A stretch of DNA of 64,000 nucleotides from an uncultured Spartobacteria bacterium (GCA_903919125.1 CAIXGS010000076.1:310001-374000); one strand, 5' to 3'. Positions 27,721 to 47,078 are shown, counted from the stretch's first letter. Program-made: numbers and translations. The notes: generated by a model from the sequence alone, not told the origin.

Positions 27721-30399
27721 TTATTTTTCTCCCTTGAGAAAGGCAATCAAGTCGGCGAGATCCTGCGTATTCATGGTTGCCTCCAAGCCACCAGGCATTA
27801 AGGATCCTGGAAATGCTTCTAGTTTAGAGAGATCCGCACGCAATACGCTTGTCTCCTGAGCCAACGGGCCGCGCAGGGTGATTGAGGTGGGTGTCTCGCT
27901 GGCCATGATGCCGCTCAAGCTGCGGCCATCCTTCGTTTCGGCAACGTACGCGGTGAAAGCCGGCGCGATTTCGGCGTCTGGCACGAGGATGTGAAAAAGG
28001 ATGTTCTCCTTGGTCTGATTTCTGATGTCCAAGAGGTCAGGCCCCACGGCGTATCCCTGACGTTCAAGACGATGACAAGCAGCGCAAACATTCCCGAACA
28101 CTTCCCGACCGTGCGCTGCTACCGGAGTCAAAAGCAACGATGCTTTAGCCGCTTCAAACGCCTGCTCACGGCCCGCCAACGCTGTCGCGAACACCCTTTC
28201 TGCACGCTGTCCAATCACGGGATCCTTCTGTTTGAGCAACTGTTTGCGGCGCACTCCGCTCACGGCACTTAGTGGGAGTGCTCCAGATTCCATCGCGTCC
28301 AAAAGTCCGCTGGCGTGAAAGCTGGAACTTAGGAGCGCGCTCAAAACCGTCTCGCGCTGGGACGGGGACTTGGCGCCCCAAGAGGCCATCAAAAACCCGC
28401 AGACTTCTGGACGGTTAAAAGCCGCCAGCCCCCGGATTGCCGCAGCGCGCAGTTCAGCATCCGGTTCGCTACTCGCAAGAGCACGCAACTTTTCCGACGC
28501 ATCCTCCCAGCTCATCCGAGCAAGCAAGCCCACAGCGGGCATTCTTTCACTGGCTGTCCGCGCCGCATCCGTGGCGAGTTCAGAAACATCGTGAAATCTG
28601 GCAGTCAGCCACGGAGATTGGGAGTCTCGCCCCTGACCATTTCCAGATGTGGCGGTGTCGATCCGGCGGTTGTGTTTTTCAAAAAAGCCAAGCAACAAGG
28701 GAAGCACCGTTGAGGATCGCTGCGTCACGGCAGGTGCGTTTTCCACGATAGACTCCAGCGCCGCCAGATCTTTAAAACTGCCTCCAAGAAATCCCAAAAA
28801 TTGCTGCGCACCGGACCCCTTAACCTGAGCTTCACTCAAAGAGTTGAGCACCGCTTTTAAAATTTCAGATTCGCGTCCGAAGATTCCACTGAGCACCGCG
28901 GCGCGAGTCCAGCGGTCCTCCATGTCACGAATTGCTATGGATGCTAGAGTTGCTGTCGCACGTGGATCGGAAACATTGCCCAGAGCCAAAGCCGAAAGAA
29001 AGCGAGTGCGCGCATCCGGAGACGATGCGGCGGCCAGACGTTCTGCTAACCAAACCTCTGCTGCTTGCGTATCAGAAGGTTGTAACTGCGCCAGCCAAGT
29101 ATCTTCGGACACTGAGGAAACGGCGGGCTCTTTGCTTTCCACCCGCGCTTGGGCACTTACACGCCAAATGCGTCCCAATTCCTTGCCGGTTTCAAAGTCC
29201 GTATGTTTGCGGACTTCCTGCGGAAGATAATCCGGGTGCTCGATGATTTTGCGATACATGTCGGCGACGTAAAGCGACTGATCCGGTCCCCGCGCCAGAT
29301 ACACGGGCCGGAACCAATCATCCCGAGAGGCCACGAATTCCATTCCATTTAAAAGAGGCTCAGCCGCAAATGCAGCTCCGTGCGCAACCAATTTATCCGC
29401 ATGAACAAGATTCCCCGTCGGGTCGCATGAAAAGGCGCAGCCCGTGTAAACGGCAGGAAGATTTCCACCGCGCCAGATATGAATGCCACATGCGGCGCTG
29501 AACGAACCTGCGTGGGAATCCGCTGTGGTAATGTTGGAGCTCACCGGAAAGAGTCGCACCCCAGCACCGCCGCCACTGAGCCCAGATTGCACGGAACGCT
29601 CGCTACAATCCTGAACGGTTTCACTAAACGTCAGAGTCGGATTACGGCGCAACCACTTGGAGGAAAGCACGACCTGCTGAACAGGCAAGCGGTTCATGCA
29701 AATGAATCGACGACCCGCAGCGTCGAACGACATTCCGTACTGAGAGCGGCCGTCGAGGTTTTCGACTTCAAGCGTCTCCGGGTTAAAGCGCACGTCGCCA
29801 GTCATTTTTAATGGTGGCCGCTCTGGATGCTCAGGGCAACTGAGAGTTCCGCCGCTCAATCCAGCGGCGAGATAGATCCAGCCGTCCGGCCCAATGGAGG
29901 GACAATTCACACGAAGCTGCGTGCTGCCGGTTGTGCCGAATCCGGTTAGTAACACTCGGCGTTCATCGGCATGACCACTCCCATGAGAGTCACGCAGAAA
30001 CAAGACGTCTGGGGCGCAAGTGACGATGAGGCCGCCATTCCAAGGTAATACGCCGTTTGGAAACGTGAGGCCGTCCGCGAAAACTGTGCGCCGGTCCATG
30101 CGTCCATCTCCGTCTGTATCCTCGAGCATTGCGATTACACCAGCGGGCGCCTCACCCTCCTTTGGGCCGATGGGATAGCCACGATTTTCCGCAACAAACA
30201 GCCGCCCGCGCTGATCAAAGGCGAAGGCGCACGGGGAGGTCACTAGCGGTTCCGCAGCCACCAAGTCCACGCGCAAACCCGGGGCGACCACAAACGCCTC
30301 CCGAGCGGCCTGTGGTGAAAGTGGACTGGAGAGCGGCGCGGCATGAAGCTCGACGATGCCGTAGATCGCGAACACGAGACTGCAGAAGAGCCGCTTCAT
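27721..30399 (-). CDS. PVC-type membrane-bound dehydrogenase with HEAT repeats and C-terminal haem
   Basis: An 892-residue exported protein of the PVC 'membrane-bound dehydrogenase' family. After a signal peptide, a beta-propeller domain begins with the family block LRVDLVAAEPLVTSPCAFAF and DQRGRLFVAENRGYP. A central helical HEAT-like region (LRALASSEPDAELRAAAIRGLAA) follows, then a C-terminal cytochrome c domain with a CxxCH haem site (VCAACHRLE) near residue 770 and a Met region further on. Related proteins resemble quinoprotein glucose/sorbosone dehydrogenases. It starts inside the stop of the ceramidase-like gene (ATGA overlap), so expression is coupled. It likely oxidises a sugar-like substrate in the periplasm; this is inference. 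Confidence 0.9.
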   Translation of the reverse strand: MKRLFCSLVFAIYGIVELHAAPLSSPLSPQAAREAFVVAPGLRVDLVAAEPLVTSPCAFAFDQRGRLFVAENRGYPIGPKEGEAPAGVIAMLEDTDGDGRMDRRTVFADGLTFPNGVLPWNGGLIVTCAPDVLFLRDSHGSGHADERRVLLTGFGTTGSTQLRVNCPSIGPDGWIYLAAGLSGGTLSCPEHPERPPLKMTGDVRFNPETLEVENLDGRSQYGMSFDAAGRRFICMNRLPVQQVVLSSKWLRRNPTLTFSETVQDCSERSVQSGLSGGGAGVRLFPVSSNITTADSHAGSFSAACGIHIWRGGNLPAVYTGCAFSCDPTGNLVHADKLVAHGAAFAAEPLLNGMEFVASRDDWFRPVYLARGPDQSLYVADMYRKIIEHPDYLPQEVRKHTDFETGKELGRIWRVSAQARVESKEPAVSSVSEDTWLAQLQPSDTQAAEVWLAERLAAASSPDARTRFLSALALGNVSDPRATATLASIAIRDMEDRWTRAAVLSGIFGRESEILKAVLNSLSEAQVKGSGAQQFLGFLGGSFKDLAALESIVENAPAVTQRSSTVLPLLLGFFEKHNRRIDTATSGNGQGRDSQSPWLTARFHDVSELATDAARTASERMPAVGLLARMSWEDASEKLRALASSEPDAELRAAAIRGLAAFNRPEVCGFLMASWGAKSPSQRETVLSALLSSSFHASGLLDAMESGALPLSAVSGVRRKQLLKQKDPVIGQRAERVFATALAGREQAFEAAKASLLLTPVAAHGREVFGNVCAACHRLERQGYAVGPDLLDIRNQTKENILFHILVPDAEIAPAFTAYVAETKDGRSLSGIMASETPTSITLRGPLAQETSVLRADLSKLEAFPGSLMPGGLEATMNTQDLADLIAFLKGEK

Positions 30400-31904
30400 T
30401 TGAGCTGGGGTGCGAGATTACCGTAAAGCCACGGCTGCTTAAACTGGGGTGCCGCTGGCGGTTCGGGCAAGGGGGTTGGTTTAAAGCGATGCGCCAGTTC
30501 CACGCCGACTTCACGGAACTGTGTCCCTGCCGTGACCTCCAAATTACTATAGCTGGTCAGCCGCGTTTCGTAGCCACCACCCGTGGCACTGAAAGCCTCC
30601 TCCGTAGGGACATATCCGACGCAACCGTTGGCTAATTCAACCGGAAAAGTGAGTGGAAAGCCGCTTTGTTTTTTAAGCTCCAACCCGTAGGCGCAAAAGT
30701 ATTCCGCAGGGTTTGAAACGCAAACTACCGGACCTATCTGGATCGCCTGCACTTCAACTTCCAGTTTTGGCGACTTAGCCAATGACGCGTCTAGGAGCAG
30801 CGTTTCCTTCGCCCAAACCCACTGTGGATCACTGGCCGGTTTTCCGATCAATTCCAATGCCTCCCGCACGCGCTCCGGAGCAGGCGCCCGACGCGCGATG
30901 TTCCACGTTTTCTGTTCCACATTCACCGGCACCTCTGCGGTCCGCGTCTGGGACATTCCCAGAAGTACCTTCACAGCCTCAGCCCCGACGCGTCCCCCCA
31001 CCCACTGGGACCAAGAATCAGCATCAGGATTCGAGTGAATATCGAGATTGTTAACCTGCGTCACATCCCCGCAGGCACCTTGAAGAAAAACCACTTTCGC
31101 CTCTGCCCCGAAGTAGCCCTGGATCACCTTCTCCATGTAGTAAATCCAATTCGCACCAATCCCCGGTGCACTCGCAGTGGCGTGACAGGAAAAGTTTACG
31201 ATACAACCGGTTAGCTTCCCGTCTGGATTCCAAACCCCGATCACGCCAACCTCCGGATCAGTCGGCCCAGCGAATCCCAAGTTATCAGGGTTGCCCTTGC
31301 CAGGATGCGAATAAGACTGACCGTTTTTCATTCGGATCCTCCGATTGAAGGCCACCTGATCTTCGCGACCGCTGCCAAATCCAACGGTGACCTCGCTCCG
31401 AGCGGCATCCGCAGCAACCACTGCGTCCACGATCGCCGAGCGCACCTGCTCCAAATAAACTGGATCAGCACAAGAGGACTTTTGATAAGCGAGCTCTTTA
31501 ACCAAGTCTGAAGCGTGGTCAAACTCTCCAGGCTGAACCATTCCGATTGGGCCGGAAGAGTGAGAATGCGACGCACCCATGAGAACTGCATTAATGCCGC
31601 AGCGCGCGACGATTTCTTTCCTGACCTGAAGCACCAGCGCACGGGGAACAATCAAGGCATCCAGCCCCACAAGAGCCGCTCGGTGTTGCCCATCGTCAAA
31701 AACCGTTACACGAACCTTGCAAGGATCGTGAATCTTTTTAGAGAAGGCTTTGCCATAGCCGCCAGGGACTTCCATACCCATTTGCGGAGTAATATCGCGT
31801 TCTGCAAAACCAGCACGCACTCCTGCAAAAGCAGGCAAGGGCACCAGAACAAACGCAAGCGTCAACAGAAGACGAGGAACTCGGTCTTTGAGGGGAATTT
31901 TCAT
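30396..31904 (-). CDS. Neutral/alkaline ceramidase-like exported hydrolase
   Basis: A 502-residue exported protein with the N-terminal domain fold of neutral/alkaline non-lysosomal ceramidase. Signs are the start of the mature protein (AGFAERDITPQMGMEVPGG), the zinc-site region GASHSHSSGPIGM and NFSCHATASAPG. The family's C-terminal immunoglobulin-like domain is not evident. Proteins of this type are very numerous in PVC bacteria, far from ceramide biology, and most have unknown substrates. The signal peptide (LLTLAFVLVPLPAFA) is clear. The stop overlaps the PVC dehydrogenase start, so they form a two-gene operon. Confidence 0.86.
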   Translation of the reverse strand: MKIPLKDRVPRLLLTLAFVLVPLPAFAGVRAGFAERDITPQMGMEVPGGYGKAFSKKIHDPCKVRVTVFDDGQHRAALVGLDALIVPRALVLQVRKEIVARCGINAVLMGASHSHSSGPIGMVQPGEFDHASDLVKELAYQKSSCADPVYLEQVRSAIVDAVVAADAARSEVTVGFGSGREDQVAFNRRIRMKNGQSYSHPGKGNPDNLGFAGPTDPEVGVIGVWNPDGKLTGCIVNFSCHATASAPGIGANWIYYMEKVIQGYFGAEAKVVFLQGACGDVTQVNNLDIHSNPDADSWSQWVGGRVGAEAVKVLLGMSQTRTAEVPVNVEQKTWNIARRAPAPERVREALELIGKPASDPQWVWAKETLLLDASLAKSPKLEVEVQAIQIGPVVCVSNPAEYFCAYGLELKKQSGFPLTFPVELANGCVGYVPTEEAFSATGGGYETRLTSYSNLEVTAGTQFREVGVELAHRFKPTPLPEPPAAPQFKQPWLYGNLAPQLK

Positions 31905-35339: not shown

Positions 35340-35810
35340 TTAACCCGCTTTGCTGCGAGACAAAGCGCGCCGCTCCCCAGCCCGGAGACCTTCAGCATAC
35401 GCCTCGAGCACACGTTTAATCTCGTCGCGAACACGGCGAAAAACCGCCAGTTGTTCCTCGCGTGAACCTGTGGCATGCGCCGGATCATCAAAACCCCAGT
35501 GGTGCCGGTTCAACTGTCCAGGGAACATCGGGCACGCTTGATCCGCATTTCCACAAACAGTGATCACAGTCTCCACCGGTTGCTGGAGGAAATCGTTCAT
35601 GTGCTTGCTATGGTGGCCGCTGATATCAATCCCGATCTCGCCCATCACTTCGATACCGAGGGGGTGAACGTAACCCGCGGGGTTCGAGCCCGCGCTGGCG
35701 ACCTCCAGCAGGTCACCGGCCGCTGCCCGAAGGATGCCCTCCGCGAGATGACTCCGGCAGGAATTGCCAGTACAGAGTATGAGAACGAGTGGTTTGATTT
35801 GAGCGTTCAT
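35340..35810 (-). CDS. arsC: Thioredoxin-coupled arsenate reductase ArsC (low-molecular-weight phosphatase type)
   Basis: A 156-residue cytoplasmic enzyme reducing arsenate to arsenite. The phosphatase-like loop is Cys13-x5-Arg19 ([15 protein letters not shown]). The second redox pair is in [16 protein letters not shown], as in the thioredoxin-dependent ArsC class. [11 protein letters not shown] holds the catalytic Asp. The start is the ATG at 35810 ([10 protein letters not shown]), eight bases after the DUF6428 stop. It is the last gene of arsR-DUF6428-arsC, and no arsenite pump gene is adjacent. Confidence 0.93.
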
Positions 35811-35818
35811 AAAGCTTA

Positions 35819-36313
35819 TCAACAACAGCCAGAGCTAGGTGTGCAACAAGAGGAGGGCGCACTAAGCGGAAGCGGTATGGGCGGTTGAGGCGAACAGGTG
35901 TCGGGTAGGCAAATGCCTCGCGCCAAGCAATCCGTATGCTTGCTGCCTAGCTGGAACTGAAGTGCTTCCGCAGAAATCTGCACGCCTTCAAGGGGGTATT
36001 GCGCCACAACATTGGACTCATGCTCCACTTCAACGGGAAAATCGTGGTGTGGCAGAATGTCTCCAGCTCTTTCAAAGATGGCAGCCAGTTTCCCTGCCAG
36101 AAGACGATGCTCTACGTCATCATGCACCCATGTCTGAAGGAGACAGGTTTCCTGAACACGCCGAGTGCCCCCGCAATCGATGAAGCGCCGAGTCACATGA
36201 CCCACCTCGGTAATGTGATAATGAGCGGGAACAAACGACCCGTCCGGAAGCCGGAGAGTGATCGCTTTTTCAGAGTTAGAGCGCAAATGAGCGAGAAATT
36301 CGTGAACGTTCAT
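35819..36313 (-). CDS. DUF6428 family protein with Cys-rich tail
   Basis: A 164-residue protein of the DUF6428 type that often accompanies ArsR and ArsC. The body has [36 protein letters not shown] and [12 protein letters not shown]. The last part contains [16 protein letters not shown] and ends in CCTPSSGCC, giving two vicinal Cys pairs that could bind arsenite or another soft metal. It is encoded three bases after arsR and eight before arsC, so it belongs to the operon. The function is unknown; arsenite sequestration or delivery is a guess. A degraded copy of its tail lies at 37480-37572. Confidence 0.82.
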
Positions 36314-36316
36314 AAG

Positions 36317-36649
36317 TTAACAACAATTATCGGGCAGGCTAATTTTCAGAGACGAAGAACCAGAAGGCGGACAAACTTGGTCCACGCAGCGTAAGAACTC
36401 CCCAAAGCAATCGCAGGCAAGACTGTAAAACACGTTCAATCCTCGCTTTTGCGACACGAGCACCCCCGCAGCTCTCAGTATGGAAAGATGCTTGGAGACC
36501 GTCGAAATGTCGTCTCCCACAAGATCCCGCAGGTCGCAGACACAGAGTTCACCATGCATAAGGGCTTCGGTAATCAGCAGACGGGTGGGATGCCCCAAGG
36601 CCTTGAGAACGGAAACGCGCTTGGATTGATTGGAGAGTATCGCAGGCAT
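36317..36649 (-). CDS. arsR: ArsR/SmtB family metalloregulator
   Basis: A 110-residue winged-helix repressor. ELCVCDL (Cys36, Cys38) is the classic arsenite-sensing motif of ArsR, followed by the recognition helix region ISTVSKHLSILRAAG. The protein ends in Cys-Cys. It should repress its own operon until arsenite binds. A perfect inverted repeat lies immediately upstream of its start codon and is the likely operator. Confidence 0.93.
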   Translation of the reverse strand: MPAILSNQSKRVSVLKALGHPTRLLITEALMHGELCVCDLRDLVGDDISTVSKHLSILRAAGVLVSQKRGLNVFYSLACDCFGEFLRCVDQVCPPSGSSSLKISLPDNCC

Positions 36650-36650
36650 G

Positions 36651-36676
36651 CTTGGCTATTTGGCAAATTAGCCAAG
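36651..36676 (-). promoter_or_regulatory. Inverted repeat, probable ArsR operator
   Basis: CTTGGCTA and TAGCCAAG are exact inverted arms around a 10-base AT-rich centre. The element begins one base upstream of the arsR ATG. Read on the minus strand, TTGCCT and TAATTT with 16-base spacing give a possible promoter overlapping it, so a bound repressor would block polymerase directly. Confidence 0.72.
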
Positions 36677-36731
36677 TTTTAACTAAAGGCAACTCCTTTC
36701 ACACAGGATTTGAGAACGCGCGACAGATGGC

Positions 36732-37076
36732 TTAAATACCTTCCTCAATGAGCGGGAGAAGTCTGGCGCGCACTGCGGTGATTACCTCTTTCTCGGCAGA
36801 TTCCACGAATTCAGCTTGGCGTGCTTTCCAATCCAAGTTTTTTATCTGATCTACTAAGATCACACCGTTTATTCCAGATTTTGACGCAACCCGAACCTCA
36901 AACGGATAACCTTTAATCTGTGAGGTTATTGGACAGACAAGAAATAAACCGACTTTCTTGTTATAGGAATAGGGAGATACCACAAAGGCTGGACGTCTAC
37001 CCGCTTGTTCGTGTCCTGCCTGGAGATTAAATGTGAGCCAGACAATATCGCCTCTGCGTGGGATATACGAGGCCAC
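36732..37076 (-). CDS. mazF: MazF/PemK-family endoribonuclease toxin
   Basis: A 114-residue toxin of the MazF/PemK fold, a ribosome-independent mRNA endonuclease. PRRGDIVWLTFN, AGRRPAFVVSPYSYN and LFLVCPITSQIKGYPFEV are typical. GVILVDQIKNLDW follows, and the C-terminus has AVRARLLPLI. I use the GTG at 37076, which overlaps the antitoxin stop as TAGTG; a TTG at 37082 is the alternative. It pairs with the MazE-like gene upstream and sits next to the ars operon. Confidence 0.9.
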   Translation of the reverse strand: MASYIPRRGDIVWLTFNLQAGHEQAGRRPAFVVSPYSYNKKVGLFLVCPITSQIKGYPFEVRVASKSGINGVILVDQIKNLDWKARQAEFVESAEKEVITAVRARLLPLIEEGI

Positions 37077-37318
37077 TACCAAACCTCCCCGCCAACCGCA
37101 AAACCCGAATCAATGGCTTCATGCCGGTTATCCGGAGTGATGTCGGCCAGTAACTCCTCCAAGGTGACCGTCTTTTTGCGCACTGGAGTGATCACAAGAT
37201 TTCCTTCCTGAAGGGAAAGATCCACGGAAGATCCATGATGGATGTGCGTCTCTTCGGCGTAGGCCTTTGGGATGCGGAGAGCGAGGCTGTTGCCCCATTT
37301 CTGAACGGAGGTTATCAC
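37076..37318 (-). CDS. mazE: MazE/AbrB-type antitoxin
   Basis: An 80-residue protein with a swapped-hairpin AbrB-type N-terminus (VQKWGNSLALRIPKAYAEE, then VDLSLQEGNLVITPV). The acidic C-terminal tail (LEELLADITPDN) occupies the toxin's RNA site in this family. The start is a GTG at 37318. It is encoded just before the MazF-like toxin with overlapping stop and start. Confidence 0.88.
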   Translation of the reverse strand: MITSVQKWGNSLALRIPKAYAEETHIHHGSSVDLSLQEGNLVITPVRKKTVTLEELLADITPDNRHEAIDSGFAVGGEVW

Positions 37319-37674
37319 GGATACACAATGGCTCTACTGCCTATCGCCGTCAAATCCCCTTCTGGCGATGTGTGCTGATTTCTTGAAGAGATGATTCCTC
37401 GCTATCCATACCGGCCTGACTCATTCAATCGCAGTTTAGAGTGCGTATTTTCAGGGAGCAGAATGTTTGGTTCATACAGTTAAGTGTATCGAAGGCAGAT
37501 GTTTTGATCCAAACAATCTGAATGCTTGAAGTCCGATAGAAACTCGAGCGCTTGCTCAGAAATCGCCATTCCTTCACCCATGTTAATCCATCGATTATGG
37601 CAGCGGCCTAATGGGACGTTGGCTTGCGGGTTGGTTACTTGTACAAAAACGGTTCCCCTCTTCATAACTTCGTC
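37319..37674. other. Gap between MazEF and the FAD oxidoreductase gene, with a DUF6428 relic
   Basis: About 355 bases without an intact gene. The recognisable content is the relic at 37480-37572. The rest holds the promoters of the two diverging units but shows no motif I would commit to. Confidence 0.55.
37480..37572 (-). pseudogene. Remnant of a DUF6428 gene (3' end)
   Basis: The minus strand encodes ISEQALEFLSDFKHSDCLDQ followed by NICLRYT and a stop. This matches [20 protein letters not shown] followed by GICLPDT in the intact DUF6428 protein at 35819-36313. The DNA also aligns well over about 90 bases. The upstream part of the gene is not recognisable and the Cys-rich tail is cut short by the stop. 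Confidence 0.75.
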
Positions 37675-40023
37675 ATGAAAGCATTTTTCTTCCCAGCAAT
37701 TTTCGGATTCATTCTATTTGTCAACAGCATTTTAGCGACTGCTTCGGAAACGCTTTTTGTCGAAGCTGAATCCCTTGGCAAGCACGGGGGCTGGTCACTG
37801 GACACCTCCTTCACCCAAATCATGGGTTCGCCCTACTTGCTCGCGCACGGACTCGGCAAGCCCGTCGCAGATGCACAGGGCGTGCTTCGAGTGAAAGAAA
37901 CCGGTTCCTACCGCGTCTGGGTGCGCACCAAAGACTGGGTGGCTCCGTGGAAGGCGTCTGGCACGCCGGGGCGGTTTCAGTTACTGATTAACGGGATGCC
38001 GCTCACCACAGAATTCGGCACGGAAGGCGCGGAATGGCATTGGCAGGCGGGTGGCACAGTCAACCTTAAGACGGGAGATGCCACAGTCGCGCTGCATGAC
38101 CTCACGGGTTTTGACGGTCGCTGCGACGCAATTCTTTTTAGTAACGACCCATCTTTCACTCCTCCAGACGGCGCGGCGCTCGCACAAGCCCGCAAGCAGT
38201 GGCTCAATCCAAACGGCTTGCCCGAGGATGCCGGCGAGTTTGATCTGGTAGTCGTTGGCGGAGGCTACGCAGGCTTGGGCGCAGCCATTTCTGCTGCGAG
38301 GCAATCCCTGCGTGTGGCCTTGGTACAGGACCGTTTCGTGTTGGGCGGGAACGGTTCCAGCGAGATCGGCGTTTGGGCGCAGGGCGGGACGATGCGAGGC
38401 AAATACCCGCACCTAGGCGAGATTGTGGAGGAGTTTGCGGACCGGGCAAAAGATAGTCCGGCAGCGGCGGCGCAATTCGTGGACGATGTGAAGGAAGCGG
38501 TTTGCCGGAATGAGAAAACGCTTTCGCTGTTTCTAGGGCACTTCGTCAATGGCGTGGTGCAGGAGAAGCCAGGCGGCAAGATTCAAGGCGTGACTGCGTT
38601 GGACGTGAAAACGGGACGGCAACGGACGTTTCGCGGAAAATTGTTCGCCGACTGCACGGGACACGGGACTGTGGGCGGCTTAGCTGGGGCGGCATTCACC
38701 ATGGAAGAGACTGGGCACATGGGGACCTCGAACATGTGGTATTTCCAACAGGAAACCGCACCCCAGTCTTGGCCGGAAACTCCGTGGGCGCTGGCCTTGG
38801 AATCTGGCGATTTCCCAACCCTGCCCAAGAGCAAGTCTCTGATCGACGAAAAGCCTTTCTTCAAAGGGGAGTGGTTTTGGGAATCGGGATTTAGCAAACA
38901 TCCACTCAACGATCTGGAATTGATTCGCGACTGGAATCTGCGGGCTGTGTTTGGTGCCTTTTCGGCGCTCAAACGCGGTGAGAAAGCTGATGAGAACGCA
39001 AATGCTTCGCTCAAATGGGTGTCCCACGTGGGCGGTCCGCGCGAGAGTCGCTTGTTGCAAGGCGACGTGGTTTTGACGCAGGAGGACATCGTTGAGAAAC
39101 GTGACTTCGCAGACGGGTTCGTTCCAACCACTTGGGACATTGATCTGCACTATCCTCGCGAACAGTACGCAAAGAAATTTCCCGAAAACCCCTTCATCTC
39201 CCGCGCCGAGTTTGGTCGGCATGTGGATCGCAAAAACGGTTACCCCGTTCCCTACCGCTGCTTCTATTCCAAGAACGTCCCCAACCTCTTTATGGCTGGG
39301 CGAAACATCAGCGTGACCCACCAAGCCTTGGGCACCGTCCGCGTCATGAGGACTTGCGGAATGATGGGCGAAGTCGTCGGCAAAGCAGCTTATCTGGCAG
39401 TTCTTCACGCCACATCGCCCCGGGGCGTTTACGAAAAGCACCTTCCCGAATTGATCGCCCTCGCGGAACAACCGGGTGCCATACGCCGCGATACCCTCAA
39501 GGGCGAGACGCGTTTGGATCCCAATATCCGTGATCCCAAAACGCTTCCCGTAGGCGTCATGAACCGAGACCTACCACAGTTCGCCAACCGCCTCAACACA
39601 GTGAATGGCGACATGGAAACTCTCCCCGGTACCGTGATCGACGACTCCATGGCGCAGTTCACGGGAAAATGGACCACGACGAAACTGACTCCTAACATCG
39701 GCGGCAGCGCACAGATTTCCGGGCGGCAAGCGGGTGCCGAAGCGCGCTTTCCATTCAAGGTTTCCGCCACTGGAAAATACGAAGTCCGTCTTTATTGGGC
39801 AGGTCACGAAAACCGAGCGTCCAACACGTTGTGCAAGATCGAGCGCGCCGGTCAAGAAGCTGCCGTCGTGCGTGTCAACCAGAAGGAAACCTCTGCGAAT
39901 GGGGCGAATCGTCTTGGCATCTTCGAGTTCAAGGATGGCGCGGCAAACGCTATCATTCTGACGGCCTCCGATGCCGACGGCAACGTGGTGGCGGATGCGG
40001 TGCAAATCGTGGCAGCTCCTTAA
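37675..40023 (+). CDS. Secreted FAD-dependent oxidoreductase with flanking beta modules
   Basis: A 782-residue exported protein. A signal peptide (FFFPAIFGFILFVNSILATA) precedes a beta-sandwich module at about residues 25-170 (VEAESLGKHGGWSLD, GSYRVWVRTKDW). The FAD-binding domain starts near residue 190 with FDLVVVGGGYAGLGAAISAA and GGNGSSEIGVWAQGG and is of the FAD-dependent oxidoreductase/thiazole-like superfamily. NLFMAGRNISVTHQALGTVR with MRTCGMMGEVVG closes it. The C-terminal about 130 residues form a second carbohydrate-binding-like sandwich (GKYEVRLYWAGHENR). I chose the ATG at 37675. The cupredoxin gene follows in 54 bases. A periplasmic oxidation of a sugar or polymer is likely. Confidence 0.87.
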   Translation: MKAFFFPAIFGFILFVNSILATASETLFVEAESLGKHGGWSLDTSFTQIMGSPYLLAHGLGKPVADAQGVLRVKETGSYRVWVRTKDWVAPWKASGTPGRFQLLINGMPLTTEFGTEGAEWHWQAGGTVNLKTGDATVALHDLTGFDGRCDAILFSNDPSFTPPDGAALAQARKQWLNPNGLPEDAGEFDLVVVGGGYAGLGAAISAARQSLRVALVQDRFVLGGNGSSEIGVWAQGGTMRGKYPHLGEIVEEFADRAKDSPAAAAQFVDDVKEAVCRNEKTLSLFLGHFVNGVVQEKPGGKIQGVTALDVKTGRQRTFRGKLFADCTGHGTVGGLAGAAFTMEETGHMGTSNMWYFQQETAPQSWPETPWALALESGDFPTLPKSKSLIDEKPFFKGEWFWESGFSKHPLNDLELIRDWNLRAVFGAFSALKRGEKADENANASLKWVSHVGGPRESRLLQGDVVLTQEDIVEKRDFADGFVPTTWDIDLHYPREQYAKKFPENPFISRAEFGRHVDRKNGYPVPYRCFYSKNVPNLFMAGRNISVTHQALGTVRVMRTCGMMGEVVGKAAYLAVLHATSPRGVYEKHLPELIALAEQPGAIRRDTLKGETRLDPNIRDPKTLPVGVMNRDLPQFANRLNTVNGDMETLPGTVIDDSMAQFTGKWTTTKLTPNIGGSAQISGRQAGAEARFPFKVSATGKYEVRLYWAGHENRASNTLCKIERAGQEAAVVRVNQKETSANGANRLGIFEFKDGAANAIILTASDADGNVVADAVQIVAAP

Positions 40024-40077
40024 GGAAGCCTCAAGTTGCTTTCGGAGATTCCACATAACCCAATTCGTTTTCCCTCT

Positions 40078-41364
40078 ATGCGCTCCCACTCTACGCCCCG
40101 TCTGCTTGCTTTGCTTGTCGGCCTCCCTGCTTTCATTCAACCCTCCACGCATTTCGCGGCAGCCCCCAAAGCACCAGAAACTAGCAAGATAAGCATCCGT
40201 GTCATTTCCGGTGCAGTTCGTTACGAAACCACGCGCTTCGATGTAACAGCGGGCGGCGCGGTCGAACTCACTTTGATTAACGACTGTATCCTCCCTCATA
40301 ACCTCGTCATTTTACGCCCCGAAGCGGAGCCCGCATTGATCGCCGCCGTCAACACCATGGGACTCGAAGGCATGGAAAAAAACTTTGTCCCGAGCGTTCT
40401 TGGAATCGTCGCGGCCACCAAACTTCTGCAGCCCACGAAAAAGGAACTCATCTCCTTCACCGCTCCGCAAGAGGAAGGCGATTACCCATATATATGCACC
40501 TTTCCCGGACACTGGTTTACGATGCGCGGGGTAATGCGGGTGAAGGCGGCGGGCGCGAAATTGGAAGCAGCCCAAAAAAGCACCGAGACAATCACTCAGG
40601 TGCAGGACGCCCTCAAGAACTCGGGCATGACACACAAGCCGCTCGGTACATTTGAAAAGCCGTTTGTCATGCGCACCTTTGCCCCAGACCCCGGCCTGGA
40701 TGCTGCGGTTTTCGCGCACCATGGTGTCGGCAAGAATGCGGTAAAGTACGATCCTGCAACTCGGATGGACTTGAGCAAAAAAGAGACAGATCCGGCTACG
40801 GGAGTTGAACGTGAGGTGCCGATTGTGGTGAAGGCTGAGAAAGGTGTCGCAGGCGCTATCGCCGTCAATCACGGTCCGGAGTTCTCTTACGTGTGGGATT
40901 CCACGGAATGCCGACTCCTCTATGTCTGGCGCGGCGGCTTCCTGGACATGAACACGTATTGGGGCAAGGAACCCGGCAGCGGACGCCCAAAAATGTACAT
41001 CCCTCTCATCATGGGACATCTGGTTTACAGAGCCTCCGGCCCTATGCCATTGGCAGAAGACTCCGATCCCGCTCCGATCTTTTTAGGATATAAAATGGAA
41101 GGCGGTCTGCCGGAATTTCGCTATCGGCTTGGAACCAAAATCCTTCGCGAAAAAGTACTACCCTCTGCAAAGGACGGCTTTGAAGTGCGCGTGATCTCCG
41201 AAACTCCAAGTGACACGCTGAGATGGAAAACACCTCCAGTCGAACGAGATGCAGTGCAGGCACGCGTTGCAAACGGCGCTCTCCTGTTATCGGTCAAGGA
41301 CCGCCCAGAACCAGAGCACCCCGTCCTCGCGCAACCGGAAAACACCAAGACCAAGCAGCCCTAA
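40078..41364 (+). CDS. Exported cupredoxin (blue-copper) domain fused to an unknown C-terminal domain
   Basis: A 428-residue exported protein. After the signal peptide, a plastocyanin/azurin-like domain of about 120 residues carries the type 1 copper ligands His74 (CILPHNLVIL) and Cys140, His145 and Met149 (YICTFPGHWFTMRGVM). The remaining about 230 residues form an unrecognised domain with ECRLLYVWRGGFLDMNTYWG and PIFLGYKMEGGLPEFRYRLG, a type often seen with PVC redox proteins. The start is the ATG at 40078. It sits between an FAD oxidoreductase and a propeller protein, so it probably takes electrons in the periplasm; the donor is not proven. Confidence 0.88.
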   Translation: MRSHSTPRLLALLVGLPAFIQPSTHFAAAPKAPETSKISIRVISGAVRYETTRFDVTAGGAVELTLINDCILPHNLVILRPEAEPALIAAVNTMGLEGMEKNFVPSVLGIVAATKLLQPTKKELISFTAPQEEGDYPYICTFPGHWFTMRGVMRVKAAGAKLEAAQKSTETITQVQDALKNSGMTHKPLGTFEKPFVMRTFAPDPGLDAAVFAHHGVGKNAVKYDPATRMDLSKKETDPATGVEREVPIVVKAEKGVAGAIAVNHGPEFSYVWDSTECRLLYVWRGGFLDMNTYWGKEPGSGRPKMYIPLIMGHLVYRASGPMPLAEDSDPAPIFLGYKMEGGLPEFRYRLGTKILREKVLPSAKDGFEVRVISETPSDTLRWKTPPVERDAVQARVANGALLLSVKDRPEPEHPVLAQPENTKTKQP

Positions 41365-41400
41365 CCGCCCCAGCACATGCTCTCCTTCCATTTTTCCACA

Positions 41401-42924
41401 ATGAATTTACGCCTGAGCCGGTTCCTAACCATTAGCTCGGCCGGTGCAGTTCTGTTCTCGCTATCAGCCGTTGCAAACGCTGATCACGCCCATTCAGCGG
41501 CACCTGCGCCTTACAGCGTACAGGAAATCCCCATGCCAAAGGGCATCGCTCCAGAAATCGGCGGCTTGGGCTTCACGCCCTCGGGCAAGCTCGTCGTCCT
41601 AACTCGCCGCTCTGGCATCCTGACAGCACGCCCCGTAGCGGACCCCGCGCAAATGCAATGGACGCGTTTCAGTGAACAATCCCTTCACAACGCCAACGGA
41701 TTGTTCGTCATCTCCGACCGTGAAATGCTCGTGAGCCAAATGCCGGAACTCACCCGAGTCCTCGACAACGACGGGGACGGCGTCGCCGACGAATACCGCA
41801 CCGAGGCGTCCTTCAACCTGAGCGGCGCCTACCACGAAGTCACCGCGGGCCCTGTTCCAGACGGAGCGGACGGATTCTTCATCGCGCTCAACACGGCATC
41901 CTTTTCGGGCTTCACCTTCGAGCACACTCGCGGCGTCTATTCCGAAGTCAGCCGCCGCGGTCGTAATTTTGCCTCCGTTGAACATCGCGGTTGGGTGATG
42001 CACTGGGATCCCAAAACGGGATTGACGCCGTGGGCAAAGGGCTTCCGTTCCCCAAATGGCATTCAACGCGGACCGGACGGCTCCCTCTGGGTAACGGACA
42101 ACCAAGGCGACTTCCGCTCTACCAATCCGCTGTATCACGTCCAAAAAGATCGCTTCTACGGACACCCCTCTTCGCTGGTATGGGATCCAGAGTACGTCAA
42201 AGCCGACCCAAAACGCGACCCCCTAAAACAACCCATGGAAGAACTCGATGCGATGCGCACCCCAGCCGCAGTGCTCTTTCCCTACGGTTTCTCGCGTTCA
42301 CCAGCGGAGCCCCTTTTTGATCTTACCGGAGGAAAGTTTGGCCCCTTTTCCGGCCAGATGTTAGTGGCAGACGCCGCCGCCCCGCGCATCATTAGAGTCA
42401 TGCTGGAGGCGGTTGACGGAGTGATGCAGGGAGCTTGCGTCGACTTTTATTCCAACAACGGCCTGCGCAATGGCTCCAACCGTCTGGCGTTTTCTCCCGC
42501 TGGCACAGAGCTTTATGTCGGTCAGACGATGCGGGAATGGGCCGGAGCGATGGAGGGATTACAGCGAATCAAATTCGACGGTGGACGGGTGTTTGATGTG
42601 CTTTCCATGCACCTGACCAAGGACGGTTTTGATCTGGAATTCACCCAATCCGTCGATCGAGGCGTGGGAGAGAAACCCGAAGACTTCGATACGGAAACAT
42701 ACTGGTACGATTATTCATCCAGTTACGGCGGCCCTGAAACAGCAGCCAAGCTGGTGCGCCCGAGCTCGCTTTCCTGGAGCGCAGACCGGCGCAAAGTCCA
42801 CCTCGTTTACCAGCAGATGCAGCCGCAACGGGTCATGCGGGTGACCATGAGCGGACTCACCTCCGAGAAGCAACCGCTTGGACACAGCATGGTTGCTTAC
42901 ACATTAAACCGGCTGGCTCCGTAA
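41401..42924 (+). CDS. Exported beta-propeller protein, PVC quinoprotein-like
   Basis: A 507-residue exported protein resembling the propeller part of PVC membrane-bound dehydrogenases (GLGFTPSGKLVVLTRRSGIL, WAKGFRSPNGIQRGPDGSLW, VTDNQGDFRSTNPLYHV). It contains a calcium-type loop (DNDGDGVADEY). Unlike the 892-residue dehydrogenase in this window it has no cytochrome domain, so a separate carrier would be needed; the cupredoxin encoded 36 bases upstream is a candidate. The start is the ATG at 41401 before the signal peptide. The C-terminal 100 residues look beta-rich and may be a separate small domain. Confidence 0.85.
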   Translation: MNLRLSRFLTISSAGAVLFSLSAVANADHAHSAAPAPYSVQEIPMPKGIAPEIGGLGFTPSGKLVVLTRRSGILTARPVADPAQMQWTRFSEQSLHNANGLFVISDREMLVSQMPELTRVLDNDGDGVADEYRTEASFNLSGAYHEVTAGPVPDGADGFFIALNTASFSGFTFEHTRGVYSEVSRRGRNFASVEHRGWVMHWDPKTGLTPWAKGFRSPNGIQRGPDGSLWVTDNQGDFRSTNPLYHVQKDRFYGHPSSLVWDPEYVKADPKRDPLKQPMEELDAMRTPAAVLFPYGFSRSPAEPLFDLTGGKFGPFSGQMLVADAAAPRIIRVMLEAVDGVMQGACVDFYSNNGLRNGSNRLAFSPAGTELYVGQTMREWAGAMEGLQRIKFDGGRVFDVLSMHLTKDGFDLEFTQSVDRGVGEKPEDFDTETYWYDYSSSYGGPETAAKLVRPSSLSWSADRRKVHLVYQQMQPQRVMRVTMSGLTSEKQPLGHSMVAYTLNRLAP

Positions 42925-45339: not shown

Positions 45340-45729
45340 TCAGCAAACTTTCATGAGCCAAAATCCAGCCGACAACACAGCACCCGCCGCATAGCTCAGA
45401 ACGTCGCCCAAATCGGCTGTTCCCAAGTGGAAAAACCGAGGAAAAACCCACTCAAAAAGTAACGGCCACACCAGTGTCCACTCCAAAACTTCAGATGCCG
45501 TGGGCATCCCGTCGTGAGTACGGAGTCCTAACTTCCGGAAAATCCAGAGTAAAGGGGGCAACGCGACTGGGATCAGCAAGCAATCGTTGAAATGGTCGTG
45601 CAAAAACGGGGACGCAGCTCCAAAACGCGGCTTCAACCACCAGCGATTCAGCGCGTAAAGTATCACCGCCCCCGAAAACAAGGAATCCGCAAGATAACGA
45701 AACCTGCGCGATTGTTCGGCTAGAGCCAT
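45340..45729 (-). CDS. Small integral membrane protein, N-terminus derived from nuclease relic
   Basis: A 129-residue protein with about three membrane segments (SLFSGAVILYALN, FNDCLLIPVALPPLLWIF, and DVLSYAAGAVLSAGFWLM) and a conserved-looking loop (RTHDGMPTASEVLEWTLVW). I recall similar proteins as hypothetical membrane proteins with a VanZ-like layout, without known function. The first residues (MALAEQSRR) match the nuclease relic immediately upstream (MTLAEQWRQ in the intact copy). The original start may therefore be lost or further inside; the ATG at 45729 is the best available. Confidence 0.65.
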   Translation of the reverse strand: MALAEQSRRFRYLADSLFSGAVILYALNRWWLKPRFGAASPFLHDHFNDCLLIPVALPPLLWIFRKLGLRTHDGMPTASEVLEWTLVWPLLFEWVFPRFFHLGTADLGDVLSYAAGAVLSAGFWLMKVC

Positions 45730-45868
45730 CGCTATTTTCTTTAGAGTTCTCGTTGTGAAGACCATCGAGCCCTGGACGAAGGGCGCTTGTGTCGAGCCCT
45801 CTCACCGTGATGTAACGGAAAAGTCGTTCCACGGAACATTTTTGAACAGGACAACGAGCCTGCCTCAA
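45709..45868 (-). pseudogene. Decayed partial copy of the Rpn-type nuclease gene
   Basis: The minus strand encodes SVERLFRYITVRGLDTSAL and LHNENSKE in one frame, then KKIAMALAEQ in another. The intact neighbour reads AVERLFRYISARDIDRNAF, FHNKNLKEKAMTLAEQWRQ in one frame. The DNA aligns over about 130 bases (45709-45838 with 46089-46222), with a frameshift. It is a truncated C-terminal segment, cut off where the membrane protein gene begins. Confidence 0.8.
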
Positions 45869-46842
45869 GCCTCGATATGTGAGGCGAAGTCTTCTAGCGA
45901 GGGCGATTTCAGCGCATGGAGGAGAAGACTTCTCAGCTTAGCGAGGCTTCGTTCCCGTTGAATTTTTTCCGCCAGACCTTCTGGAACGCGACCATAGCGA
46001 ACCTCCAGAACATCGATGACAGACTGTTGGGCCTGCTCACGACCCTCTTCTCTGCCTTTCTCCATGCCTTCTTCCATTCCTTCTTGGCGCCATTGTTCAG
46101 CAAGAGTCATCGCTTTTTCCTTTAGGTTTTTGTTGTGAAAACTATTGAGCGTTTCTCGAAAGGCGTTTCTGTCGATATCTCTGGCGCTGATGTAACGAAA
46201 AAGTCGCTCCACAGCACTCTCGCTTGCGCTTAGGAGTAGGATCTCATCAAAAACCATCGCATGCAACAGTTCTCCCAGCGCGTCAGCACGCAAAGCGCGC
46301 ATCGAAAGCACTCCGGCAGCCGAGCCGCGCATTTCCTCGTAGCCAAGGGAAACTAGTTGGATGAGTTCAAACGTGAAGTCTGGAGTGTGTGCCGGTGACG
46401 CTCCCTGCCCAAACAACGGCGAAAAACGGGGTTCTGTCCGCCAAGGTTCACTGCTTTGAGCGAGAACCACCGGAATGATGGGCGATAGAAACGGCTTTTG
46501 CTTGGAGGCGAGGTTATTGGCACGTTGCCTTTCCCAAATCTTCACCATGTAACTCAGCAGACGCAACGCCATCCATGGGTCTTCCCGACTTTGATGTTCG
46601 AAGAGGATGTAGATGAACGCCTCGCCAGACTCAGACGAAACGCTAAAAAGCAAGTCACTCTCTGAACCGGTCAGCTCCGAATCAATGAAACTGCCCGGTT
46701 GTTGACGGAGAGTACTCCAGTCCAGCGAAGTAACGAGATCAGCCGCCAGATAGTTTTGAAAAAAAGCGACTGCATTTTCGAGCTCTGAGAAAGTCGAACG
46801 AAAGAGTTTGTCGTTGGGTTGATGGACGGGGTGCTCGGCCAT
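45865..46842 (-). CDS. Rpn-family PD-(D/E)XK nuclease/transposase-like protein
   Basis: A 325-residue protein of the recombination-promoting nuclease (RpnA/transposase_31) group. The N-terminus has HQPNDKLFRSTFSELENAV. The nuclease core has Asp63 (SESDLLFSV) and Glu82/Gln84 (YILFEHQSREDPWMALRLL), followed by SYMVKIWERQ. The C-terminus has the repetitive Glu/Gly helix EGMEEGMEKGREEGREQAQ and a closing region YGRVPEGLAEKIQ. E. coli Rpn proteins cleave DNA and promote recombination or act in phage defence. I start it at the ATG at 46842; the longer open frame upstream reads as non-coding. A truncated copy lies just downstream. Confidence 0.87.
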   Translation of the reverse strand: MAEHPVHQPNDKLFRSTFSELENAVAFFQNYLAADLVTSLDWSTLRQQPGSFIDSELTGSESDLLFSVSSESGEAFIYILFEHQSREDPWMALRLLSYMVKIWERQRANNLASKQKPFLSPIIPVVLAQSSEPWRTEPRFSPLFGQGASPAHTPDFTFELIQLVSLGYEEMRGSAAGVLSMRALRADALGELLHAMVFDEILLLSASESAVERLFRYISARDIDRNAFRETLNSFHNKNLKEKAMTLAEQWRQEGMEEGMEKGREEGREQAQQSVIDVLEVRYGRVPEGLAEKIQRERSLAKLRSLLLHALKSPSLEDFASHIEA

Positions 46843-47078
46843 GGCAATGCAGGGGGCGGGAGCACCGAACTCGCATCGGAGCCGTCCACCAACTAGGATT
46901 CGCGATTCCCTGCGAGGCTGGGTTATCAATTGGGCAAAAAAGTCGGCGGAAACGCGTCCGTGTCCGCGCAGATCGCCGTTGCTACGGACCTCCATTCCTG
47001 AGCGTTTGTCTCTTTCCTGCACATCGCTTACACTCTAGGGTTCGAGTCGCCAGCAAACCCTCCCACGACGTAATAAAC

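Follow-up and report, generated by a model that had tools for sequence, protein, structure and literature searches.

The question raised by this locus is whether three adjacent genes of an uncultured Spartobacteria bacterium act as one secreted oxidation system. The genes are on the plus strand at positions 37675-42924 of a 64,000-nucleotide stretch of DNA (GCA_903919125.1 CAIXGS010000076.1:310001-374000), hereafter called the window, and encode a flavin adenine dinucleotide (FAD) oxidoreductase, a carrier protein in which a cupredoxin is joined to a domain designated X, and a propeller protein resembling sugar dehydrogenases. A preliminary description had proposed that the three form an oxidation chain with copper rather than haem as its carrier. 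Comparison of loci from Verrucomicrobiota indicated that the second and third genes (40078-42924) are a conserved two-gene module, that the three-gene redox chain is not supported and that the FAD gene is only a recent neighbour of the pair.

37675..40023, plus strand: P0001, FAD oxidoreductase, 782 amino acids (aa)
40078..41364, plus strand: P0002, carrier gene of the pair (cupredoxin and domain X), 428 aa
41401..42924, plus strand: P0003, propeller gene of the pair, sugar-dehydrogenase-like, 507 aa

The coordinates of the open reading frames (ORFs) bore out the gene positions, common strand and intergenic gaps (54 bp between P0001 and P0002, 36 bp between P0002 and P0003) given earlier. The signal peptides attributed to all three proteins were likewise consistent with a hydropathy check, the sole basis of this prediction, in which each N-terminus was hydrophobic, of the signal-peptide type and with an AxA motif; a twin arginine was absent from the first 15 residues of each.

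Conservation of the carrier and propeller genes

Searches for P0002 and P0003 covered 288 genomes of the phylum and, for P0003, also 147 genomes of the order and a genome-contig collection. In these searches, domain X matches fell next to propeller matches. The flanks of 47 other propeller loci were annotated with profiles from the window and its paralogues; approximately 9 of these loci had been selected on matches to both genes, and the others mostly on propeller matches alone. A domain X gene was found on the same strand at all 47 loci and was directly upstream of the propeller gene or fused to it at 46, with cupredoxin, domain X and propeller united in a single protein at L112; at L139, the domain X gene was approximately 870 bp upstream. 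Cupredoxin-X and propeller were present at each of 12 orthologous loci (L161-L172) from freshwater and related metagenome-assembled genomes (MAGs), and the window genome was found to hold three further pairs, one with copper (L039), one with copper and PA14 (L040) and one with five haems (L041). The names Akkermansia muciniphila and Opitutus sp. given to some of the MAGs (L165, L167, L168, L161) look wrong, their contigs matching genomes of the window's genus.

Distribution and neighbours of the FAD gene

Relatives of P0001 were sought in the phylum and in genomes of the family, and the co-occurrence check suggested with the preliminary description, when run, showed that the three families rarely lie side by side, contrary to the proposed three-gene system. 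The trio was present at 1 of the 47 other pair loci, namely L161 (on one contig with L186), the window's nearest relative, where the propeller is 92% identical to P0003, and the pair was found near none of the 17 other FAD-family loci with flanks. The FAD gene was missing from 46 of the 47 other pair loci and from all three sister pairs of the window genome; its orthologues in the window's genus (70-79% identical) were sited on other contigs, and genomes G340, G298, G400, G426 and G384 had the FAD gene but no close copy of the pair. The usual upstream neighbour of the pair, a divergent LysR gene at 8 of the 12 orthologous loci, is replaced in the window by the FAD gene.

It might still be argued that the trio works together in this species, with sugar oxidation by the FAD enzyme feeding the cupredoxin and the propeller serving as a second dehydrogenase. 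The common strand and short gap in the window, the exported appearance of all three proteins and the retention of the same gene order in L161/L186, at approximately 90% identity, would suit such an arrangement; given the distribution just described and the other gene neighbours that FAD orthologues have in common, it is judged improbable. P0001 is probably not part of the conserved system, and the trio as a conserved operon was ruled out by co-occurrence across the phylum, order and family searches. An FAD gene 54 bp upstream is, as a caution, not proof of a system without a check of this kind.

A membrane protein with FMN_bind and 4Fe-4S domains adjoined the FAD gene in 6 of the 17 loci (L122, L188, L191-L194) and adjoined FAD-only relatives as well (L083, L085-L087), and ApbE was joined to this neighbour in several loci. 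Single-chain FMN_bind-Fer4_5-ApbE proteins were noted at L191 (8517-11207), L192 (4357-6996), L122 (2924-5536) and L206 (1658-4246), three of them adjoining FAD orthologues. NapH-like flavinylated electron conduits are made up of FMN_bind and 4Fe-4S domains, with or without ApbE (PMC8238504), and a hitherto undescribed conduit of this type may have the FAD family at its periplasmic end. On this view, the FAD gene would be part of another system, one usually accompanied by a membrane flavoprotein of the NapH-like FMN_bind/4Fe-4S/ApbE kind, and its position ahead of the pair would have arisen in the species of the window and the closest relative alone.

The preliminary description of P0001 as an FAD enzyme with a module on either side agreed with its domain matches.

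38242..39435, plus strand: FAD-binding domain of P0001, residues 190-587, PF12831, E 6.7e-64
39646..40011, plus strand: C-terminal Golvesin_C module of P0001, residues 658-779, PF25275

The match to FAD_oxidored (PF12831) scored 217 bits against a curated cut-off of 27. Golvesin_C (PF25275, E 2e-21) matched in two stretches, and the C-terminal module resembles the C-terminus of xanthan lyase (6f2p); a related module in front (residues 25-170) is kept in the same family, as indicated by matches to the golvN model.

Upstream of the FAD gene (35340-37320), an ArsR-like regulator, a small conserved protein and an arsenate-reductase-like phosphatase are encoded on the minus strand, followed by a MazF-like toxin, possibly paired with an AbrB-like protein, immediately before the FAD gene. 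The window and L161/L186 have the set from ArsR to the phosphatase in common, but no MazF gene was seen at the latter locus.

Copper and haem as alternative carriers

Two regions were delimited in P0002, the first from matches to auracyanin and azurin structures and the second, which is DUF6797-like, from its own profile.

40183..40545, plus strand: azurin-like type 1 copper domain of P0002, residues 36-156
40624..41247, plus strand: domain X of P0002, residues 183-390

Copper-bind (PF00127) matched residues 39-155 with 29 bits, above its cut-off of 21.2, and the complete type 1 copper site reported earlier was confirmed by the azurin-type ligands H74, C140, H145 and M149, invariant in 13 orthologues. 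P0002 scored 34.1 bits against the 105.1 required for azurin proper (TIGR02695). The region of approximately 230 residues behind the cupredoxin, also reported earlier, had no Pfam match at E 10, DUF6797 (PF20601) included. A weak match to PF20601 was noted at the position of domain X in 5 of 10 relatives (best 21.4 versus 24.9 bits), and an insertion of approximately 50 residues within domain X was specific to the window's clade. DUF6797 was matched at 1e-30 by the fused giant L042 of the window genome (3810-8249, upstream of suf-like genes), a single chain of 1479 aa with DUF6797, propeller and five CxxCH motifs (cytochromes c). Because of the weak DUF6797 matches and the single chain of L042, the pair is plausibly a split, divergent relative of these DUF6797-propeller-cytochrome giants.

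The carrier fused to domain X differed in kind among the 48 rows compared, window included, being a cupredoxin in 22, a domain with one CxxCH in 21 and a domain with five CxxCH in 4; L140, a doubtful ORF, was the sole row without a carrier motif. Cytochrome c domains were recognized by Pfam in the haem-type carriers tested. When mapped on a carefully built tree of 47 propellers, the copper or haem label required 5 changes, 4 of them forced by well-supported branches, bootstrap trees gave 5-6 changes (0% with one change) and a single copper clade was rejected (p-AU 3.7e-31). The 13-member copper clade of the window was sister to a 9-member single-haem clade on the propeller tree. Three copper/haem changes were needed on the tree of domain X, and three copper groups were apart on a tree of cupredoxins, which bears on single versus repeated capture of copper domains and is itself weak. 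Both kinds of carrier were present together in the window genome, which has three copper pairs and one five-haem pair. In the L106-L110 clade (e.g., L109 6343-7398), the single haem is C-terminal to domain X, the carrier being N-terminal elsewhere; this order of motifs indicates a change in the side of the carrier, and not only in its kind, in that clade.

What stands of the proposed copper-carried chain, therefore, is that a secreted cupredoxin and propeller belong together and that copper replaces the haem of relatives; membership of the FAD enzyme is not supported. The expression "copper instead of haem" is apt, but the exchange is recurrent within a single enzyme family, and the expression covers one half of it.

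Fold and conserved residues of the propeller

41509..42606, plus strand: six-bladed propeller of P0003, residues 37-402, predicted fold

By sequence, P0003 gave weak Pfam matches to GSDH and DUF7133, and a search of chains in the Protein Data Bank returned nothing beyond designed Pizza propellers and repeats that were short or marginal, for which reason fold comparison was used. PQQ (pyrroloquinoline quinone) sugar dehydrogenases ranked first for the predicted model (predicted local distance difference test, pLDDT, 71; predicted template modelling score, pTM, 0.75), with Foldseek 3e-11 to 6jt5 and VIA-align Z 23.2 to 3a9g. The modelled propeller is six-bladed and clearly like a PQQ sugar dehydrogenase, with a fold of the soluble glucose dehydrogenase and Asd type. 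No CxxCH motif was found in P0002 or P0003, in agreement with the earlier account of a propeller without its own cytochrome.

Alignment with hhalign placed H145 and R216 of P0003 with the catalytic His and Arg of Escherichia coli YliI, roles known from soluble glucose dehydrogenase. Among 25 propellers, H145 was nearly invariant and R216 invariant, and the paralogue L039 passed the cut-off for GSDH (PF07995) with 32.2 bits. The alignment of a C-terminal Arg/Lys of P0003 to the PQQ enzymes was uncertain.

Sugar-related genes near the pair

A 3-keto-disaccharide hydrolase (PF06439) was fused to cupredoxin-PA14-X at L120 and L139 (by Pfam) and at L121 (by its own profile), and a hydrolase of this kind adjoined the pair in L111 and L113. 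The fused chains (L139 2822-5584, L120 7686-10298, L121 7928-10303) are on the same strand as the propeller, and together with it each is possibly an oxidise-then-cleave machine. Hydrolases of this family act downstream of glycoside 3-dehydrogenases (PMC9007349). A xylose-isomerase-like TIM barrel adjoined the pair in at least 9 loci (L041, L102-L104, L116, L162, L165, L166, L172). PVC (Planctomycetes-Verrucomicrobia-Chlamydiae) genomes are rich in such genes; adjacency is the weaker clue and the fusions the stronger. Owing to the fusions and adjacency of the 3-keto hydrolase and to the xylose-isomerase-like neighbours, a sugar or glycoside is the favoured substrate class for a putative periplasmic oxidation.

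Proposed activity of the pair and alternatives

P0002 and P0003 probably constitute one copy of a two-part periplasmic dehydrogenase of Verrucomicrobiota, with the FAD gene outside it. The propeller would oxidise a small molecule, for which a sugar or a glycoside ring is the likeliest candidate, and domain X would dock on the propeller and set the electron carrier, a type 1 copper domain of the azurin kind in P0002 and one or five c-type haems in relatives, beside the active site; the reduced carrier would then pass electrons to the respiratory chain. The chances are about even that the pair belongs to a family, not yet described, of two-part periplasmic dehydrogenases acting on sugars or glycosides in Verrucomicrobiota, in which the propeller partner of domain X stays the same while haem c and type 1 copper have replaced each other at least 4 times and both kinds occur in one genome.

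Several observations weigh against this interpretation. P0003 missed the GSDH cut-off (16 versus 25 bits), and its PQQ/Ca2+ contacts differ from those of the known enzymes, the Asn after the Arg being Ser and the HGP loop being NQG. No PqqE above cut-off and no PqqC were detected in the window genome, which is 95% complete, in a search whose PqqC control was itself silent; PQQ uptake instead of synthesis is possible. Lactonases and other propellers scored only approximately 2-3 Z units below the sugar dehydrogenases. The docking of domain X is a guess, since in the AlphaFold model of P0002, good for the cupredoxin, much of domain X was under pLDDT 50 and too poor for a fold search. Most copper-type orthologues of the window had no adjoining sugar gene.

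Some of these observations would also suit a propeller that is not redox-active, being instead a lactonase or hydrolase of the SMP-30 type or a binding scaffold that the X-carrier protein meets only structurally. SMP-30, DFPase and strictosidine synthase structures gave Z 20-21 with the P0003 model, near the 23 of the sugar dehydrogenases, and both the unconserved PQQ contacts and the PQQ genes undetected with a silent PqqC control point the same way. Yet a redox carrier was retained in 47 of 48 partner proteins despite the change in its chemistry, the exception being the doubtful ORF at L140, the His/Arg pair is conserved at the catalytic positions of sugar dehydrogenases, and one relative is above the GSDH cut-off; we therefore regard a non-redox propeller as unlikely. 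It is less likely by far that electrons run the other way, from the carrier to a propeller acting as a reductase or peroxidase-like enzyme. Such carriers can work in both directions and nothing more specific favours this reversal, whereas the fold relatives with the same His/Arg pair are dehydrogenases and the 3-keto hydrolase and isomerase neighbours suit oxidation.

If the pair is a dehydrogenase, as preferred here, its relatives offer a natural series of copper, one haem and five haems on the same enzyme and domain X, which lends itself to tests of the role of domain X and of the substrate of the enzyme. Its carrier can be read out optically, and the exchange of carriers could be reproduced in vitro.

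Other features of the window

An ORF for an Rpn-like nuclease/transposase is present at 45865-47022, and the sequence alongside (45491-45868) resembles the degraded remnant of a second copy. The minus strand at 27721-31904 encodes a ceramidase-like protein and a large PVC-type protein of 892 aa that is secreted.

Comparison with known systems

The three genes were compared with six kinds of known system. NapH-like flavinylated conduits (PMC8238504) concern the FAD gene, an FMN_bind and Fer4_5 gene, with or without ApbE, adjoining orthologues of P0001; they differ in that no FMN_bind/Fer4_5 gene is beside the FAD gene of the window, the homologue being on another contig (L206 1658-4246). Periplasmic 3-keto-glycoside pathways (LacABC with DUF1080, PMC9007349) share with some relatives of the pair a fused or adjacent 3-keto-disaccharide hydrolase, but no LacABC-type gene was seen and no 3-keto hydrolase is beside the pair of the window. 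Soluble PQQ sugar dehydrogenases (GSDH PF07995; E. coli YliI/Asd, Streptomyces Adh 3das, Coprinopsis AA12 6jt5) have in common with P0003 the predicted six-bladed fold and the catalytic His/Arg and differ from it in their PQQ/Ca2+ contacts, which P0003 does not conserve, in its dedicated carrier partner gene and in its extra C-terminal beta domain. P0002 has the ligands H, C, H and M of azurin and auracyanin with azurin spacing but is fused to domain X and is under the azurin equivalog cut-off.

PVC bacteria encode many secreted haem-propeller proteins of unknown function. The Planctomycete-specific cytochromes (PSCyt1-3/PSD) of freshwater Verrucomicrobia are large PVC periplasmic redox families, thought to be carbohydrate-directed and likewise of unknown function (PMC5615132). 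They resemble the pair as PVC-specific periplasmic redox sets with a presumed carbohydrate role; no PSCyt or PSD domain was present in P0001-P0003 among Pfam matches at E 10, and these families are parallel to the pair but a different set. The closest in layout are the PVC-type heme-binding CxxCH proteins (TIGR02604) and the DUF6797-propeller-cytochrome giants such as L042, which are secreted, belong to the same phylum and have the same order of parts, X/DUF6797, propeller and c-type haem. The window differs from them in its separate genes and in copper rather than haem; P0003 scored 22.6 bits against the TIGR02604 cut-off of 122.2, and the CxxCH motif is lacking, as noted above.

In the open-access literature, no paper naming DUF6797, DUF7133 or PVC-type heme-binding proteins was found, nor any such system among papers on cupredoxins with Verrucomicrobia or PQQ, nor any report of copper and haem replacing each other in a module of this kind. 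The component families are known, and the fused PVC propeller-haem proteins are known by model name (TIGR02604, DUF6797, DUF7133).

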